A stretch of 64,000 nt of DNA from Phycisphaerales bacterium. GTDB lineage: Bacteria > Planctomycetota > Phycisphaerae > Phycisphaerales > UBA1924. Positions 5,520 through 29,715 of the stretch are shown piece after piece; position 1 is the first letter of the stretch; each line of letters begins with the position of its first letter. A program made the position numbers and the translations under genes. The stretch covers positions 1 to 64,000 of the forward strand of contig RECZ01000109.1 of NCBI GenBank assembly GCA_007693765.1. The letters are read 5' to 3'. Under the pieces are notes generated by a model. It worked only from the letters and a program-made list of their open reading frames with translations. It searched no databases and had not been told where the DNA came from.

Positions 5520-6638
5520 ATGGCGTTGCCCCACGTGCTGGAGTGCGAAAAGCCGCTGCACGAACTCGAGCGCAAGATCCAGGCGCTCGAATCCCTCACA
5601 AGCAACGACGCCGACCAGTCGGCGCTGGACGCCGCCCGCGCCGAGTACGCCGAGGCGCTGGCGCACCTCTACGCCAATCTCTCCCCGTGGGACATCGTCC
5701 GCGTTGCGCGCCACCCCAAGCGCCCCCAGACGCGCGACTACATCCGGCTCATCTGCAAGGACTTCTGCGAACTGCACGGCGACCGCCGCTTCGGCGACGA
5801 CCCGGCGCTCATCACCGGCTTCGCCCGCATCGGCTCGATGCGCGTGATGATCGTCGGGCACCACAAGGGCGCCGACACCAACGACAAGATCGCCTGCCAC
5901 TTCGGCTGCGCCCACCCGGAGGGCTACCGCAAGGCGCTCGCCAAAATGCGCCTCGCCGAGAAGTTCGGCCTGCCCATCGTCACCCTCGTGGACACGCCCG
6001 GCGCCTTCCCCGGCCTCGGCGCCGAACAGCGCGGCCAGGCGGAGGCCATCGCGGTGAACATGCTCGAGATGAGCCGCATGAAGACGCCCATCGTCAGCAT
6101 CGTCATCGGCGAGGGCGGATCGGGCGGGGCGCTGGGCATCGCCGTCGCCGACCGCGTGGCGATGCTCGAGTACGCGTACTACTCCGTCATCAGCCCGGAA
6201 GGATGCGCCGCGATCCTGTGGAAGGAAGCCAATTCCGAGACCAACTCCGCCGCGGCCAAGGCGCTCAAGCTCACCGCGAAGGACAACCTCGAACTCGGCA
6301 TCGTCGACGATGTGATCACCGAACCCGTGGGCGGCGCCCACCGCGACCCGGCCGCGATGGGCCGCACGCTCGAGCAATGGATCACCGACCGTCTGCGCGA
6401 GCTCAACCGCTTCAAGCCCGCCAACCTCCCCGCCCGCCGCTACGAGCGCTTCCGCAAGCTCGGCTCCTACCTCGAGGTCGAGCCCACGCCAGAGCCGTCG
6501 GAGGACGCCGCCGCCCCCTCGCCGGCGCCGCCCGCGCCCGAGACCGACGCAACGACGCCGCGTGCCGCGCAAGGCAACGGCGCCGCGGCTCGCAAGCCCC
6601 GGACACGGTCCTCGGAGCCGGCCCCTGCGGGCAACTGA
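5520..6638 (+). CDS. accA: Acetyl-CoA carboxylase carboxyltransferase subunit alpha
   Basis: AccA pairs with AccD to transfer the carboxyl group from biotin to acetyl-CoA, making malonyl-CoA for fatty acid synthesis. The N-terminus (ECEKPLHELERKI), the middle (DTPGAFPGLGAEQRGQAEAI) and IGEGGSGGALGIAVADRV are conserved AccA blocks. The 372-residue length exceeds the usual 315-330 because of a disordered Pro/Ala/Glu-rich tail after about residue 320. A GGAG at about 5508 precedes the ATG. A TAGACT at 5427-5432 could be the -10, giving a leader of about 80 nt. The partner accD is not in the window. Confidence 0.95.
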   Translation: MALPHVLECEKPLHELERKIQALESLTSNDADQSALDAARAEYAEALAHLYANLSPWDIVRVARHPKRPQTRDYIRLICKDFCELHGDRRFGDDPALITGFARIGSMRVMIVGHHKGADTNDKIACHFGCAHPEGYRKALAKMRLAEKFGLPIVTLVDTPGAFPGLGAEQRGQAEAIAVNMLEMSRMKTPIVSIVIGEGGSGGALGIAVADRVAMLEYAYYSVISPEGCAAILWKEANSETNSAAAKALKLTAKDNLELGIVDDVITEPVGGAHRDPAAMGRTLEQWITDRLRELNRFKPANLPARRYERFRKLGSYLEVEPTPEPSEDAAAPSPAPPAPETDATTPRAAQGNGAAARKPRTRSSEPAPAGN

Positions 6639-6684
6639 GCCGCACACTCCGAACATATTCCTATCGTGAGAGCCCCGGTCGGCG

Positions 6685-6713
6685 TTGACGCCTGATCGGG
6701 AGATGTTTACATT
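6685..6713 (+). promoter_or_regulatory. Sigma-70-type promoter for the DksA-like gene
   Basis: TTGACG (6685-6690), a 17-nt spacer and TACATT (6708-6713) match the vegetative consensus closely. Transcription would start near 6720. That leaves only about 8 nt before an in-frame ATG at 6728 but about 90 nt before the GTG at 6809, and this supports the GTG as the start. Confidence 0.65.
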
Positions 6714-6808
6714 GTCTCATTCGACCGATGGGCGCTTCGGGGCGGGCTCCACCCCCCGATTTATGGCTCTTTCGGCGACTTCCGTCGACACTGGCCGGAG
6801 CCTCCTTC

Positions 6809-7825
6809 GTGGCGAAAGCAGCGGGATCAAAGTCAAGCAAGGGCAACGCACGCGACGCCAAGAGCGGCGCGAAACCTGCCGCCGCGCGCAGCGGCTCCAA
6901 GCCGTCCGCCAAGGCGAAATCGAAGGCGGCCCCGAAGAAGTCCGCCAAGAAGGCGCCCGCGAAAGCAACGCCCGCTGCGAAGAAGCCTCGGGCCAAGAAG
7001 CCCGCCGCCGCGAATGCCGCGCCGGCCAAGAAGTCGAGCGCGAAGAAGGCCGCCGCGAAAAAGGCGCCCGCAAACAAGAAGGCGCCCGCCAAGAAGGCGA
7101 CGCCCGCCCCCGCGACGAGCGTCGACAAGAAGGTCGGAAAGAAAAAGGCCGCGCGGGCTCCGAAGCCCGCGTCGCCCGCCGCCAAGGCGCAGCCCAAGGC
7201 GGAAACCAAAGCCGCCAAGGCTCCCAAGGGCGCGAAGGTGAAGGGCAAGAAGGCCGCCGCCGGCGCGAAGCCGACCAAACCGGCCCGCTCCGCCAAGGCC
7301 GAGCGCGAGCCGCTCAAGGAATTCTCGATGGACGAGGCGCGGGCCGCGGCGTCGCGGCTCGCCGCGTCGGCCGGCATGGCGCCGATCCAGTCCGGGTCGT
7401 CTCTGGACACCAACGCCAGCGCCCGCAAGCCCCGCTCGAATAAGAGCCCGCTCTCGAAGAAGGACCTTGAGGAATACAAGCAGCTGCTCGTTCACAAGCG
7501 AGGCGAAATCGTGGGCGACGTCTCCGCGATGGAGACCGAGGCGCTCACGGGCGGCGGCAGCGGGTCGCTCTCCAACCTGCCCCAGCACATGGCCGATCAG
7601 GGTTCGGACACGTACGACCAGTCGCTCTCGCTCGACCTCGCCGCCTCGCAGCGCAAGCTCCTCAAGGAGATCGACGCGGCGCTCGAGCGCATCGACAACG
7701 GCACGTACGGCGTGTGCGAGATGATGGGCGTGCCCATCGGCAAGGCGCGCCTGAACGCGAAACCGTGGGCCAAGTACTGCATCGAGGCGGCGCGGCAGAT
7801 GGAGATGCGCCCCTACATGCGCTGA
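6809..7825 (+). CDS. DksA/TraR-like protein with Lys/Ala-rich histone-H1-like tail
   Basis: The protein has two parts. Residues 1 to about 190 are almost entirely Lys, Ala and Pro in KKAPAKK-like repeats, resembling eukaryotic histone H1 tails and bacterial AlgP/Hc1-type DNA-binding proteins. The C-terminal 120 residues are DksA/TraR-like: a coiled coil (KKDLEEYKQLLVHKRGEIVG) and a zinc-finger region starting NGTYGVCEMMGVPIG. Canonical DksA has two CxxC pairs. Here each pair keeps only its first Cys (CEMM and CIEA), so zinc binding is doubtful. DksA proteins act in the RNA polymerase secondary channel. The tail suggests DNA or RNA contact, which is inference. GTG 6809 is chosen because GGAG lies 8 nt upstream at 6797-6800; ATG 6728 would add 27 residues but lacks a ribosome site. 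Confidence 0.8.
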   Translation: MAKAAGSKSSKGNARDAKSGAKPAAARSGSKPSAKAKSKAAPKKSAKKAPAKATPAAKKPRAKKPAAANAAPAKKSSAKKAAAKKAPANKKAPAKKATPAPATSVDKKVGKKKAARAPKPASPAAKAQPKAETKAAKAPKGAKVKGKKAAAGAKPTKPARSAKAEREPLKEFSMDEARAAASRLAASAGMAPIQSGSSLDTNASARKPRSNKSPLSKKDLEEYKQLLVHKRGEIVGDVSAMETEALTGGGSGSLSNLPQHMADQGSDTYDQSLSLDLAASQRKLLKEIDAALERIDNGTYGVCEMMGVPIGKARLNAKPWAKYCIEAARQMEMRPYMR

Positions 7826-7830
7826 CGCCC

Positions 7831-8508
7831 GTGCCCAACGACGCCACTGCCCCCCAGGACAACCCCCCCACGCTCCCCGCCGCGTCGGCCCCGCCCGCGT
7901 GGCGCTGCAGACGCGCGTGGATCGTCCTGCTCGTCGCGACGCTGCTCGGCCTGGTCGCCGATCTGGTGAGCAAGGAGATCGCCTTCGCCCGCGTCGCCGG
8001 CGACCCCGTCGTGATCCACCGCGAGGACGTGCTGACGCTGCCCAGCCCGGCGATGATCGGCTCGCTGCTCCCCTACCACGCGCCGGTGAACGTGATCCCC
8101 GGAGTGCTCGATTTCCGCCTCGTGCTCAACCCCGGCGCGGTGTTCGGCGTGGGGGCCGGTCAGCGCTGGTTCTTCGTGCTCTTCACGACGGTCGCGCTGG
8201 GCGTGGCGGTGTGGGTCTTCGCGACGTGGACGCGCGGCCGCGACACCGCGGCCCACATCGGCGTGGCGTGCGTGCTCGCCGGCGGGCTGGGCAACCTCTA
8301 CGACCGGCTGAAATTCGCCTGCGTCCGCGACTTCATCCACCCGCTGCCCGGCGTCAACCTGCCCTTCGGCATGGCGTGGCCGAGCGGGGACAGGCAGATC
8401 TGGCCGTGGGTGAGCAACGTGGCGGATGCGCTGCTGATCGTGGGCATCGCGCTGCTGCTCATCCACCTGTGGCGGGGCGAGCCGGCCAAGCAACAGGCGA
8501 CGGCGTGA
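7831..8508 (+). CDS. lspA: Signal peptidase II (prolipoprotein signal peptidase)
   Basis: LspA is a membrane aspartyl protease that removes signal peptides from prolipoproteins after lipidation. It starts at GTG 7831, five bases after the previous stop, giving 225 residues. Four membrane segments are visible: near 30-48, around 105-130, 135-155 and 195-215. The family signatures are VLNPGAVFG, GGLGNLYDRL, VRDFIHP and SNVADALLIVG; the Asp residues of the last two are the likely catalytic pair. It is longer than the usual 160-170 residues because of inserts after the first helix and between DFI and the last helix. Substrates with lipoboxes are encoded at 53.0 and 53.9 kb. Its stop overlaps the next start as GTGA. 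Confidence 0.92.
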   Translation: MPNDATAPQDNPPTLPAASAPPAWRCRRAWIVLLVATLLGLVADLVSKEIAFARVAGDPVVIHREDVLTLPSPAMIGSLLPYHAPVNVIPGVLDFRLVLNPGAVFGVGAGQRWFFVLFTTVALGVAVWVFATWTRGRDTAAHIGVACVLAGGLGNLYDRLKFACVRDFIHPLPGVNLPFGMAWPSGDRQIWPWVSNVADALLIVGIALLLIHLWRGEPAKQQATA

Positions 8509-8945
8509 GCGGGGCGCGGAGGGACAAGCGTCTTTCCGGGCGGCTCGTGCTCGCGACGCTCGCAGCGCTCGTGATCGTCGCGGCGGCGCTGATCGTCGCG
8601 CCCGGCGTTCGCATGATGATGCTGGGCCCGGGTTCGCCCGCATTGGCGGAGCTCGTCGAATCTTTTGAACGCGGCGACATCTCCCCCGATCATTCCTTCG
8701 GCGACCTGGTGCGGGAGGGGCTTAAGCCCCAGGCGTACGCGATGCGCCACGACAACGGCGATACGTTCGGCGTCGCGGTGGCGCACGACAGCGACAGTGT
8801 GCTCATCGTCTACACGCTCAACGGCGCGATCTACGCCGCGCAGCACATTCATCGCTCGGGCACGCACACGGAACGGTGGTACTTCTGCGACGAGGAAGTG
8901 CTCCAACGGCACATCGCGCTCTCGCGCCGTGCGCCGAGCCGCTGA
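8505..8945 (+). CDS. Small membrane-anchored protein of unknown function
   Basis: The GTG overlaps the lspA stop (GTGA), so the two are probably co-translated. The 146-residue product has one membrane helix (about residues 14-34, rich in Leu, Ala, Val and Ile) followed by a soluble domain of about 110 residues with a predicted alternating strand pattern (GDTFGVAVAHDSDSVLIVYT). No catalytic motif or known family is apparent. Coupling to lspA suggests an envelope role, but that is only context. Confidence 0.7.
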   Translation: MSGARRDKRLSGRLVLATLAALVIVAAALIVAPGVRMMMLGPGSPALAELVESFERGDISPDHSFGDLVREGLKPQAYAMRHDNGDTFGVAVAHDSDSVLIVYTLNGAIYAAQHIHRSGTHTERWYFCDEEVLQRHIALSRRAPSR

Positions 8946-8964
8946 GGCCCGGGTGCGGGTTCGT

Positions 8965-9930
8965 TCAGGAGCGGCTCATCGACTCCGCCCGGTCGCGCAG
9001 CATGTCCAGCATGCCGCGGACCTCCTGGGCCATGCGCGAATTCGGGAAGTCGTTGATGATGCGTTCGCCCACCTCGACGGCGTCGCGCCAGGCGCGGTCC
9101 TGCACGGCGAGTTTGAAGCGGACGCCGAGGTTGTCGCGGGCCTTGCCGATCACGCCGCGGGCGAGCTCGCGGAAGGGCTCGGCCTCCTCCTCGGTGAGGT
9201 ACTGGTCGAGCTCCTTGAGAAGGGTCATGGCCTCGTCGACCTGCTCGCGCTCGGCGCAGACGAGGAATCGACGCTCGAGGTCCTGCTTGTGGCGCGAGCG
9301 GGCCTGATCGACGCGCTCGCGCAGGCCGGCGACGCGGTGCGACTCGGGGTACAGGCGGGTGATGCGTGCGGCCTCGGCGTAGGACTCGGCCCAGTGGCGA
9401 TCGCGGATCATCTTCTCGAGCGATTCGAGCGACGCGATGACCTCCTTATCGAGCGTCTGGGCCCGCACACGCTCGATGCGAGCCCGGAACTCCTCGGCGT
9501 CGGCGCGGTAGCCGAAGCGCTCGGCGAGCTCTTTCACCAGGATCAACGCGGCCTCGTAGTCGCCGAGGCTGATGTCCTGCTCGATCGCCTTGCGGAGCAG
9601 CGCGCGCTCCTCCTTGCGGTGGATGATGCGCTTCGCCGTCTCGGACAGACCGCCCTCGTGCGTCAGACGCTCGATGGCCTGCGAGATGCGGTCGAACGAC
9701 TCGCGCGGCGAGGGGCCCTCGGCGCTGGACGAAGCACGGAGCGCCATGGGGATCGTCGCGATGGTGAAGACCAGGGCCACGAAGGCGTAGCCGCGCAGGT
9801 CCGGCGTGAAGAGCATCATCGCCACGCACACCAGCGCCAGCCCGGCGTACATCGCGATCACGACGAACTGCGGGATGAAGACGTCCTTGCGGGGGGTGGG
9901 CTTCTTGCGATCGTCGTCGGTGGGGCTCAC
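8965..9930 (-). CDS. Membrane protein with cytoplasmic TPR/coiled-coil domain
   Basis: The start is GTG 9930 with a strong AGGAGG-type site about 7 nt upstream on the minus strand. The 321-residue protein begins with a charged stretch, then two adjacent membrane helices (about residues 20-43 and 47-64). A long helical region of charged residues follows, with degenerate TPR-like pairs (for example DYEAALILVKELAERFGYRA and DAVEVGERIINDFPNSRMAQ). The architecture suggests a membrane-bound scaffold. No enzyme motif is seen and I do not recognise the family. It is convergent with the lspA operon, 19 nt away. Confidence 0.7.
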   Translation of the reverse strand: MSPTDDDRKKPTPRKDVFIPQFVVIAMYAGLALVCVAMMLFTPDLRGYAFVALVFTIATIPMALRASSSAEGPSPRESFDRISQAIERLTHEGGLSETAKRIIHRKEERALLRKAIEQDISLGDYEAALILVKELAERFGYRADAEEFRARIERVRAQTLDKEVIASLESLEKMIRDRHWAESYAEAARITRLYPESHRVAGLRERVDQARSRHKQDLERRFLVCAEREQVDEAMTLLKELDQYLTEEEAEPFRELARGVIGKARDNLGVRFKLAVQDRAWRDAVEVGERIINDFPNSRMAQEVRGMLDMLRDRAESMSRS

Positions 9931-27024: not shown

Positions 27025-29715
27025 ATGGCCAAGAAACCTACTACAACCCGAACAAAGAAGGCGCCAACCAAGAAGACGGCGCGGTCCAAGGCCGGCGCCC
27101 CGCGCTCCAAGGGCTCGTCGGAGCGCGTCAACGCCACCGGCAAGCAGTTGGTGATCGTGGAGTCGCCGGCCAAGGCGAAAACTATCAATAAATACCTCGG
27201 CTCCGGCTACGTGGTGAAGGCCTCGGTGGGCCACGTCCGCGACCTGCCGACGAAGTCGAAGAAGGGCGAGAAGGCCCCCGTGCCCGGCGTCGACCTCGAG
27301 CACGACTTCGAGCCCTCCTACGAGGTGCTGCCCGGCAAGTCCAAGACGGTGACCGAGCTCAAGCGGGCGGCCAAGCAGGCCTCCGACATCTGGTTCGCGA
27401 CGGATCTTGACCGCGAGGGCGAGGCGATCGCCTGGCACCTCGCGCAGGAACTGGGCATCAAGCCCGGCGACGCCAAACGCGTGGTCTTCAACGCCATCAC
27501 GGCGACGGAGATCAAGCGGGCGTTCTCCAACCCCCACCCGATCGACGAGAACAAGGTCAACGCCCAGCAGGCCCGGCGCGTGCTCGACCGCATCGTGGGC
27601 TACCAGGTGTCGCCGCTGCTGTGGAAGAAGGTGGCCCGGGGCCTGAGCGCCGGGCGGGTGCAGTCCGTCGCGGTGCGCCTCGTCGTGGAGCGCGAGCGCG
27701 AGATCCGCGCCTTCGTGCCCGATGAGTACTGGCGCATCACCGGGCGGTTCGCGCTCGACGAATCGACCGCCAGGAAGCTCATGGGCGAGTGGGGCGCGTT
27801 CCTCGAGACGCGCGACGAGAAGGGCGCAGTGCCCACGATCAAGGCCCAGAACGCGTGGCTTGCCCAGCGCGGCGCCGTGAGTGCCGAGCTCGTCGAGGTC
27901 GGTGGCGAGAAGTTCGAGATCGCCGGCAAGGGTGGCGACGACGCGGCCCAGCCCGCCGATCTCTCCCCGCGTGTGCTCGACGTCGTGCGGCTCGCCGGCC
28001 TGACGAACGTCGAGGCCGACGCCGCGGAGGACGAAGCCGCCAAGGGCCCCGCGCGGTGGAAGCGCACGGTCACCGGGACCGTCGACGCCTCGACGCCCTA
28101 CAAGGTCACGTCCATTGAGACGAAGCGGACGAGTTCGCGTCCGCCCGCGCCGTTCATCACGTCCACGCTGCAGCAGGCCGCGTCGTCGCGCCTCTCCTTC
28201 GGCGCCCAGCGCACCATGCGGGCTGCGCAGCAGTTGTACGAGGGCGTGGACATCCCCGGCGAGGGCTCCGTCGGCCTCATCACGTACATGCGTACGGATT
28301 CGACGCACCTCACTGGCGACGCCATCCAGATGGCCCGCGACTTCATCCAGCGCACCTATGGCGACAAGTACCTGCCCGAGAAGCCCAACTTCTTCTCCTC
28401 ATCCAACAGGTCGGCGCAGGAGGCGCACGAGGCGATCCGCCCCACCTCGCTCGATCACCCCCCCGAGAAGATCCGCAACTCCCTCAAGCCAGATCAGTTC
28501 CGCCTTTACCAGCTCATCTGGGACCGCTTCGTCGCCTGCCAGATGACGCCCTCGCAGTGGGACGCGACGAGCGTGCTCATCACCGGCGGCACGGACCCCA
28601 AGACCCCCGTCACCTTCCGTGCTACTGGGCGCGTGCTGGTGTTCGACGGCTACCTCCGCGTCGCCGGCGTGCCGCAGGCCACCGACGAGCAGACGCTGCC
28701 CTCGCTCGAAGAATCGCGGCCCATGTGCCCGTTCGCCATCGAGCCAGACCAGCGCTTCACCTCGCCCCCGCCGCGGTACAGCGAGGCCTCGCTCATCAAA
28801 ACGCTCGAGAGCGAGGGCATCGGCCGCCCTTCCACGTACGCCTCGATCATCCAGGTGATCCAGGACCGCAAGTACGCCGAGCAGATCGAGCGGCGCTTCT
28901 ACGCGACCGACCTCGGTGAGGTCGTGACCGACAAGCTCATCGAGGCCTTCCCCGAGATCATGGAGCTCGGCTACACCCGCGACCTCGAGCTCGAGCTCGA
29001 CTCCATCGAGGACGACAACAAGGACTGGATCGCTGTCCTGCACTCCTTCTACGGCCCCTTCAAGGACCAGCTCGAGCGCGCCCACGACGAGCTCACCCAC
29101 GCCAAGGCCGAGACCACGCCCGCGCCCGCCGAGTACAAGTGCGAGAAGTGCGGCAGCTCGCTCGTCTACCGCTTCGGCAAGAGCGGGCGGTTCCTCTCCT
29201 GCTCCACCTACCCCACCTGCGACTACGCCTGCCCCATCGACCGCGAGGGCAAACCCCGCCCGATCGAGGTCTCCGACGTCGCCTGCCACAAGTGCGGCAA
29301 GCCGATGATCAAGCGCACCGGGCGATTCGGCCCCTTCTACGGCTGCTCCGGCTACCCCGAGTGCGACGGCATCCTCAAGGCCGACAAGCAGGGCCGCCCC
29401 GTCGCCCCCGCCACGCCGCCGCTGGAAACCGACATGCCCTGCACCAAGTGCAGCGACGGCGCCCTCGTTCTCCGCAACGGCGCCCGCGGGCCGTGGCTCT
29501 CGTGCTCTCGCTACCCCAAGTGTCGCGGCCGGGGCAAGTGGTCCGAACTGACAGACGACGTGCGCACCAAGTGGGAGAACGCGCTGGCCGCGCACGAGAA
29601 GGCGCACCCGACGCCGATCATCCGCGACCTCGAGGGCGAGGCCCTGACGGACGCGAAGGGCAAGCCCATCGAACGCGAGGGCGAGGGCGACGACGCCGGC
29701 AGCGCCGCCGCCTGA
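27025..29715 (+). CDS. topA: DNA topoisomerase I
   Basis: This type IA topoisomerase relaxes negative supercoils. The N-terminus is a Lys/Thr-rich tail of about 35 residues. The Toprim domain starts at KQLVIVESPAKAKTINKYLG and has ATDLDREGEAIAWHL. The catalytic tyrosine is Y421 in GLITYMRTDST. Three C-terminal zinc ribbons are visible, each with four Cys (starting CEKCGSS, CHKCGKP and CTKCSDG). The 896-residue length is normal for a TopA with extra C-terminal domains. A GGGAGA site precedes ATG 27025. The basic N-terminal tail recalls the one on the DksA-like protein at 6.8 kb. Confidence 0.97.
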   Translation: MAKKPTTTRTKKAPTKKTARSKAGAPRSKGSSERVNATGKQLVIVESPAKAKTINKYLGSGYVVKASVGHVRDLPTKSKKGEKAPVPGVDLEHDFEPSYEVLPGKSKTVTELKRAAKQASDIWFATDLDREGEAIAWHLAQELGIKPGDAKRVVFNAITATEIKRAFSNPHPIDENKVNAQQARRVLDRIVGYQVSPLLWKKVARGLSAGRVQSVAVRLVVEREREIRAFVPDEYWRITGRFALDESTARKLMGEWGAFLETRDEKGAVPTIKAQNAWLAQRGAVSAELVEVGGEKFEIAGKGGDDAAQPADLSPRVLDVVRLAGLTNVEADAAEDEAAKGPARWKRTVTGTVDASTPYKVTSIETKRTSSRPPAPFITSTLQQAASSRLSFGAQRTMRAAQQLYEGVDIPGEGSVGLITYMRTDSTHLTGDAIQMARDFIQRTYGDKYLPEKPNFFSSSNRSAQEAHEAIRPTSLDHPPEKIRNSLKPDQFRLYQLIWDRFVACQMTPSQWDATSVLITGGTDPKTPVTFRATGRVLVFDGYLRVAGVPQATDEQTLPSLEESRPMCPFAIEPDQRFTSPPPRYSEASLIKTLESEGIGRPSTYASIIQVIQDRKYAEQIERRFYATDLGEVVTDKLIEAFPEIMELGYTRDLELELDSIEDDNKDWIAVLHSFYGPFKDQLERAHDELTHAKAETTPAPAEYKCEKCGSSLVYRFGKSGRFLSCSTYPTCDYACPIDREGKPRPIEVSDVACHKCGKPMIKRTGRFGPFYGCSGYPECDGILKADKQGRPVAPATPPLETDMPCTKCSDGALVLRNGARGPWLSCSRYPKCRGRGKWSELTDDVRTKWENALAAHEKAHPTPIIRDLEGEALTDAKGKPIEREGEGDDAGSAAA

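Follow-up and report, generated by a model that had tools for sequence, protein, structure and literature searches.

The window (the whole stretch of DNA analysed, 64,000 nt of a Phycisphaerales contig) raises the question of what is made by a gene that reads like a histone H1 tail in its first part and like the RNA polymerase factor DksA in its last, where half of the expected zinc ligands are missing. Is this one protein or two, is the zinc site decaying, and what could such a tail do on such a fold? The frame is GTG-started, uninterrupted and 338 codons long, and the features needed for the answer are the following.

5520-6638, forward strand: accA, acetyl-CoA carboxylase alpha subunit, upstream neighbour (NF004344, 430 bits, above the cut-off)
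6685-6713, forward strand: sigma-70-type promoter TTGACG-17-TACATT, 95 nt 5' of the start codon
6809-7825, forward strand: histone-tailed DksA-like gene without a C4 zinc site, GTG start, 338 aa
6809-7300, forward strand: Lys/Ala/Pro/Ser-rich tail, about residues 1-164, end approximate (from composition)
7301-7435, forward strand: linker with a short predicted helix, about residues 165-209 (AlphaFold2 model)
7436-7822, forward strand: DksA-fold core, residues 210-338, with helical hairpin, globular part and C-terminal helix (PF01258, model)
7715-7717, forward strand: C303, first zinc-ligand position, Cys in 282/282 proteins
7724-7726, forward strand: M306, replacing the second Cys (sequence, alignment)
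7766-7768, forward strand: W320, the Trp accompanying loss of Cys2 and Cys4 (protein comparison)
7778-7780, forward strand: C324, place of the third ligand, mostly Cys, Ser or Thr among relatives
7787-7789, forward strand: A327, replacing the fourth Cys (sequence, alignment)
7831-8508, forward strand: lspA, lipoprotein signal peptidase II, downstream neighbour (PF01252, E 3.3e-26)

Relatives were collected in two ways. A search with the core only matched 59/61 near relatives, 234/248 genomes of the class and 176/199 of the phylum; the protein sequences compared are those of the loci fetched, a subset of the 234 matching class genomes. The named relatives come from a pattern scan of the genome collection; the best 80 of the 85 relatives that it found are all planctomycetes, mostly Phycisphaerae. 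A scan of viral contigs for a possible viral origin found no relative. The 306 loci were reduced to 282 distinct proteins by dropping L001 and L002, which repeat the window, and 22 further repeats. The gene order is widely shared. Only 5 nt lie between the stop codon of the DksA-like gene and the start of lspA, and, among loci with enough sequence, lspA follows in 52/56 at order level, 65/73 of the named relatives, 57/93 at class level and 36/55 in other classes. Upstream, accA is found in 39/56 order-level loci.

The tail has a start and a promoter of its own. The near-consensus promoter TTGACG-17-TACATT proposed by the initial annotation is borne out: it matches the consensus at 9/12 positions and is the sole promoter-like site in 6300-9000, where shuffling leaves on average 0.1 such sites. 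The pattern TTGAC-N18-TAnnnT (or with CATAAT as the second hexamer) lies at most 200 nt upstream of 88/136 tailed Phycisphaerae genes, with 0.1 expected from shuffles, and peaks at spacing 17, other spacers being met in at most 8 of the tailed genes. These counts cover 136 of the 171 tailed genes with the frame inside the locus, a recognisable start and 200 nt upstream being required. A Shine-Dalgarno-like 4-mer stands within 20 nt of the start in 103/136 tailed genes versus 29 expected, and Ala-Lys directly follows the heuristic start in 86/170 tailed relatives. The ATG at 6728 would give a 365-aa reading, the extra residues of which have no counterpart in the relatives examined; hence GTG 6809 was kept as the start.

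The other two frames across the tail are closed by stops in 157/170 and 135/170 relatives. These stops, the conserved GTG-Ala-Lys start and the conserved promoter disfavour the tail as a wrong frame or a separate product. A separate tail with an internal start before the core was the case that the initial annotation had set against itself, and it is disfavoured as well, since the conserved start and the Shine-Dalgarno-like 4-mer precede the tail. The Lys/Ala/Pro histone-H1-like tail and the DksA-fold core are thus supported as parts of one polypeptide, as first claimed. A minor shorter product may also be made, because internal start codons occur in many relatives: among the last 60 codons before the core, 72/170 tailed relatives have an in-frame ATG and 146/170 a start codon of any kind.

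The leaders of L115, L126, L130, L132, L138 and others share a conserved block near TGACAAGGACTTACG, placed after the -10 box and before the start codon; many Phycisphaerae of families other than that of the window have it. The leader RNA of 9 loci gave no Rfam match, nor did 19 of the 22 prepared leaders yield any consensus pairs.

What, then, is the core? Its PF01258 score of 31.3 bits exceeds the Pfam gathering cut-off of 24.9 and places it in the TraR/DksA superfamily; the genome assembly, 96% complete, has no second PF01258 match. The core stays below the NCBIfam cut-offs both for DksA (TIGR02420, 62.6 against 115.5; NF033459, 69.9 against 105) and for its best NCBIfam match, TIGR02890 bacill_yteA (77.3 bits against 134.4), hence it is not DksA proper. 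The AlphaFold2 model of residues 165-338, made with an alignment of 53 relatives out of 75 prepared references (mean pLDDT 82.9, pTM 0.64), is helical at fragment residues 53-83 and 97-133 and presents the long helical hairpin, globular part and C-terminal helix of the DksA fold. All six Foldseek matches at E ≤0.001 are DksA-family chains, 4ijj being the first (E 5.6e-07). VIA-align superposes the model on 4ijj with Z 13.5 over 116 residues (2.1 Å, 32% identity) and on 1tjl with Z 13.3 over 119 residues (1.7 Å). Z alone is weak for a mostly helical model, with unrelated hairpins at about 8, but the assignment is firm because PDB sequence matches back the Z scores: the closest PDB sequences are of the DksA family, 6ptg (1.4e-17) followed by 4ijj and 1tjl. 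The DksA/TraR core of the initial annotation thus holds.

The linker that precedes the core has its predicted helix at model residues 10-23, with a pLDDT of 66-83 in the block. In close relatives (L061, L141, L064, L065, L118; 7301-7435 in the window) the motif AAAxxLAxxAGLxPVQ lies between tail and core, and it is faintly like LAIAGVEPYQ, a stretch close to the N-terminus in E. coli DksA. The form AAAxxLAxxAGxxPxQ is carried by 13/282 proteins (7/56 order-level, 6/75 named).

The zinc site is altered in a regular way. The core motif of the window protein reads VCEMM...YCIEA, with C303 and C324 retained and M306 and A327 at the places of Cys2 and Cys4; each CxxC has indeed lost its second Cys, as was noticed at first reading. 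The four-Cys motif of DksA proper is therefore absent, and the protein instead combines a site of at most two Cys with the DksA globular fold, as in the DksA2 kind, 4ijj being its best fold match. While the first Cys is invariant, the third ligand place of the 216 Phycisphaerae proteins without Cys2 holds Cys (118), Ser (72), Thr (21) or Gly (5), while Tyr (108) and Ala (57) prevail at the fourth. The loss is accompanied by a Trp, at the position equivalent to T131 in E. coli DksA: it is present in 217/222 proteins lacking Cys2 and Cys4 versus 9/60 others, and in 7/9 of the Cys2/Cys4-less proteins outside Phycisphaerae.

The same fusion was sought among planctomycetes, as the initial annotation had advised, and was found. 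Counting as tailed the proteins with a tail of at least 60 aa that includes a Lys-rich stretch, we find the tail in 56/56 distinct order-level relatives, and both Cys2 and Cys4 are absent from the same 56/56. For the named relatives the figures are 68/75 for the tail and 75/75 for the double loss, for the other class-level loci 53/95 and 82/95, and for other planctomycete classes 15/56 and 9/56. Since all 56 distinct order-level relatives share both features, the window protein is neither a freak nor a product of decay. Of the "half-lost zinc finger" originally described, the Cys loss stands and the implied decay does not: this is a fixed, constrained form without the C4 site, and the state without Cys2 and Cys4 is stable. 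We infer that a hydrophobic core including the Trp stands in for zinc, which agrees with the published zinc-free fold and function of DksA2. DksA2 retains two Cys and binds no zinc (PMC9213440), and it keeps the same globular fold without the zinc finger together with DksA-like function (PMC9239242). The window protein would likewise be expected to be free of zinc when purified, judging from its ligand places.

Are tail and Cys loss bound to each other? By counts they are associated, both in the class sample (p 0.002) and in other classes, where tails occur in 5/9 proteins without Cys2 and Cys4 versus 10/47 of the rest (Fisher p 0.048). For a sign test of tail gain with Cys loss, the tree (114 columns, 230 rows; few supported forks) offers 6 independent pairs on supported branches. 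At least 8 changes of the Cys state and at least 28 of the tail have to be placed on this tree, whose support is weak. Among the 15 tailed proteins of other classes, 5 are without both Cys and 10 retain Cys2, Cys4 or both, so each of the two features is also met without the other. Six proteins of other planctomycete classes (L289, L297, L298, L299, L303, L305) have intact C4 zinc sites plus long Lys-rich tails, which means that the tail is gained or kept also where no Cys has been lost. In the Phycisphaerae family f9, the DksA-like proteins of L041, L043, L206, L263 and L265 end in a long acidic extension, and several of these genomes have a second DksA-like gene.

The hairpin tip and the ppGpp site set the window protein further apart from DksA proper. 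The coiled-coil tip is HMADxG (HMADQG in the window protein) versus the DxxDxA of DksA, with the second Asp alone retained, and it is among the best conserved parts of the protein. In the 216 Phycisphaerae proteins without Cys2 the D74 place holds Asp (192/216) or Glu (23/216), the D71 place His (213/216) and the A76 place Gly (212/216). From fold and tip, the protein presumably binds in the RNA polymerase secondary channel. In E. coli DksA, ppGpp is contacted at site 2 by K98, R91, K139, L95 and R129, and the single loss of K98 or R129 abolishes this binding (PMC7676912). The window protein has Glu, Ala and Lys at the places of K98, K139 and R129, and in relatives (n=216) the K98 place is Glu in 195, the K139 place Ala in 181 and the R129 place Lys in 114. 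With these residues replaced, site 2 would be unused, and ppGpp-independent action is likely.

The part that precedes the core, about 210 residues long, abounds in Ala, Lys, Pro and Ser; residues 1-214 contain 66 Ala, 49 Lys, 23 Pro and 23 Ser. This is the long Lys/Ala/Pro-rich low-complexity domain of AlgP-type H1-like tails, and its composition suggests disorder. Tail length ranges from 48 to 321 among relatives. This variation in length and presence, with at least 28 changes, means that the tail is not indispensable to the fold. Could it then be a loosely constrained low-complexity extension, arising by drift of GC-rich repeats or kept for solubility, with no specific role on an ordinary zinc-free DksA-like factor? 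The frequent gain and loss, the spread of lengths and the tracking of locus GC by tail GC at codon positions 1 and 2 (rho 0.61) are what such an extension would give. However, all 56 order-level relatives keep the tail, its net charge is positive in 170/170 tailed relatives (+7 to +79, median 34.5), and its Lys share is steady (0.23, sd 0.07) although locus GC ranges over 42-74%, the choice of AAG among Lys codons varying instead (rho 0.77 with locus GC). We therefore give this explanation very little credence. No second open copy of the tail was found in the own genome among 150 of 480 candidates scored.

We suggest that the polycationic tail binds DNA or nascent RNA without sequence specificity, by analogy with AlgP. 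Polycationic disordered tails are unselective, and this general property also favours another explanation, in which the partner of the tail is not DNA but RNA (nascent transcripts, rRNA) or polyphosphate, so that the protein is coupled to transcripts or storage granules. KPAA peptides of AlgP bind DNA in vitro, and the KPAA-tailed AlgP itself is located on polyphosphate granules (PMC9239181). The sequence, however, favours no one polyanion, and the neighbours are accA and lspA and not polyphosphate or RNA-processing genes. A preference for RNA or polyphosphate thus appears unlikely.

Lys-rich N-termini are also seen elsewhere in this genome. An HU-family protein (L309, C28:439-726) has a Lys-rich N-terminal tail of about 30 residues, and the type I DNA topoisomerase TopA encoded in the window (27025-29715, forward strand; TIGR01051, 785.7 bits) has a Lys/Ala/Thr-rich N-terminal stretch MAKKPTTTRTKKAPTKKTARSK. 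These N-termini fit a general habit of tethering nucleic-acid proteins, and the tail may therefore be a general device and not a special fusion. The similar tail on the HU-like protein is also a point for the view that the window protein mainly packs the nucleoid, its tail coating DNA and its DksA fold being a mere anchor with little action on polymerase; so is the sheer weight of the tail, which makes up about two thirds of the window protein and carries the high median charge given above. A simple anchor, however, would not need the well-conserved HMADxG hairpin tip, many relatives retain the core without a long tail, and the genome already has three HU-family matches, two besides L309. A mainly packing role is in our judgement distinctly improbable.

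Hence, on balance and with modest confidence, we favour a zinc-free secondary-channel factor on the DksA fold, probably independent of ppGpp at site 2 and tethered to nucleic acid by its polycationic tail. Binding to polymerase, binding to nucleic acid and tethering are deduced here from fold, tip and composition, and the proposed mechanism is as follows. This TraR/DksA-superfamily protein of Phycisphaerae would act on RNA polymerase through the secondary channel, into which the HMADxG tip would reach with its central Asp (D74 of E. coli DksA) kept. The globular part would fold zinc-free, probably via a hydrophobic patch including the Trp and not via four Cys, so that neither a need for zinc nor a response to oxidation of the C4 thiol-switch kind would be expected. 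With the site-2 residues lost, the factor would probably not depend on ppGpp there. The tail, disordered and polycationic like that of histone H1 or AlgP, would bind DNA or nascent RNA nonspecifically and would keep the factor on the nucleoid, thus raising its local concentration at polymerase.

Each part of this design has a known counterpart: zinc-free DksA and H1-like tails are both already known. Pseudomonas aeruginosa DksA2 (4ijj) is like the window protein in its two Cys, its lack of a C4 finger and its globular fold; unlike the window protein, its solved chain (136 aa) has no Lys/Ala/Pro tail. DksA2 is made only in zinc starvation, alongside the zinc-containing DksA1 (PMC9213440), whereas in the window's genome the form without C4 stands alone. 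Chlamydia trachomatis DksA (6ptg), the closest PDB sequence, retains C1 with the other three ligand places not Cys; its tip is QHQADQGTD, and at 132 aa it has no tail. The histone-H1-like Hc2 of Chlamydia is a separate protein (PMC2848022). E. coli DksA (1tjl, 7khi) shares the hairpin, globular part, C-terminal helix and D74 with the window protein, which is missing its C4 finger, DxxDxA tip and three ppGpp site-2 residues; unlike the window protein, it has no histone-like tail. The DksA-like proteins of the Bacillus YteA/YlyA type are the best NCBIfam match, yet the window protein falls below the TIGR02890 cut-off. YlyA binds RNA polymerase and its gene lies near lspA; we know of no comparable tail in proteins of this type.

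Two further systems are similar in principle. CarD of Myxococcus xanthus binds beta and is not known to bind in the secondary channel. Like the window protein, it joins a polymerase-contacting domain to a disordered DNA-binding domain, which is HMGA-like; it differs in its unrelated CarD/CdnL fold and in having the tail at the C end (PMC4182748). AlgP of P. aeruginosa shares the KPAA-type H1-like disordered domain, which in AlgP binds DNA, but its tail is C-terminal and is attached to a different helical N domain with no DksA core (PMC9239181). In the open-access literature, searched by title or abstract start, no description of a DksA with a histone-like tail was found, and an open-access search for Phycisphaerae and DksA found no paper. 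Thus, as far as that literature goes, what is new is the order-wide, regular union of a presumably zinc-free DksA core with an H1-like tail, with its own conserved promoter and with a Trp that accompanies the Cys loss.

If this is true, one bacterial class has a single protein that both binds nucleic acid and controls RNA polymerase, and the genome of the window has no other DksA-type factor. The proteins in which the loss of zinc ligands goes together with one Trp form a natural set in which one can test directly what holds the globular part of DksA together without metal. We also put forward a bolder suggestion, which we regard as possible but doubtful: that the sole DksA-type factor of such Phycisphaerae is a chromatin-tethered polymerase regulator, spread nucleoid-wide via its tail, which has dropped control by zinc and by ppGpp at site 2 and whose action at promoters is set by tail binding. 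The binding state of the tail would then be set by DNA compaction, RNA or lysine modification. Planctomycete nucleoids can be unusually condensed, as described for Gemmata (PMC3440768), and a histone-tailed polymerase factor would therefore be a testable link between packing and transcription. Were the chromatin-tethered regulator real, bacteria would have their own counterpart of chromatin-bound transcription control, with the DksA fold as its base.
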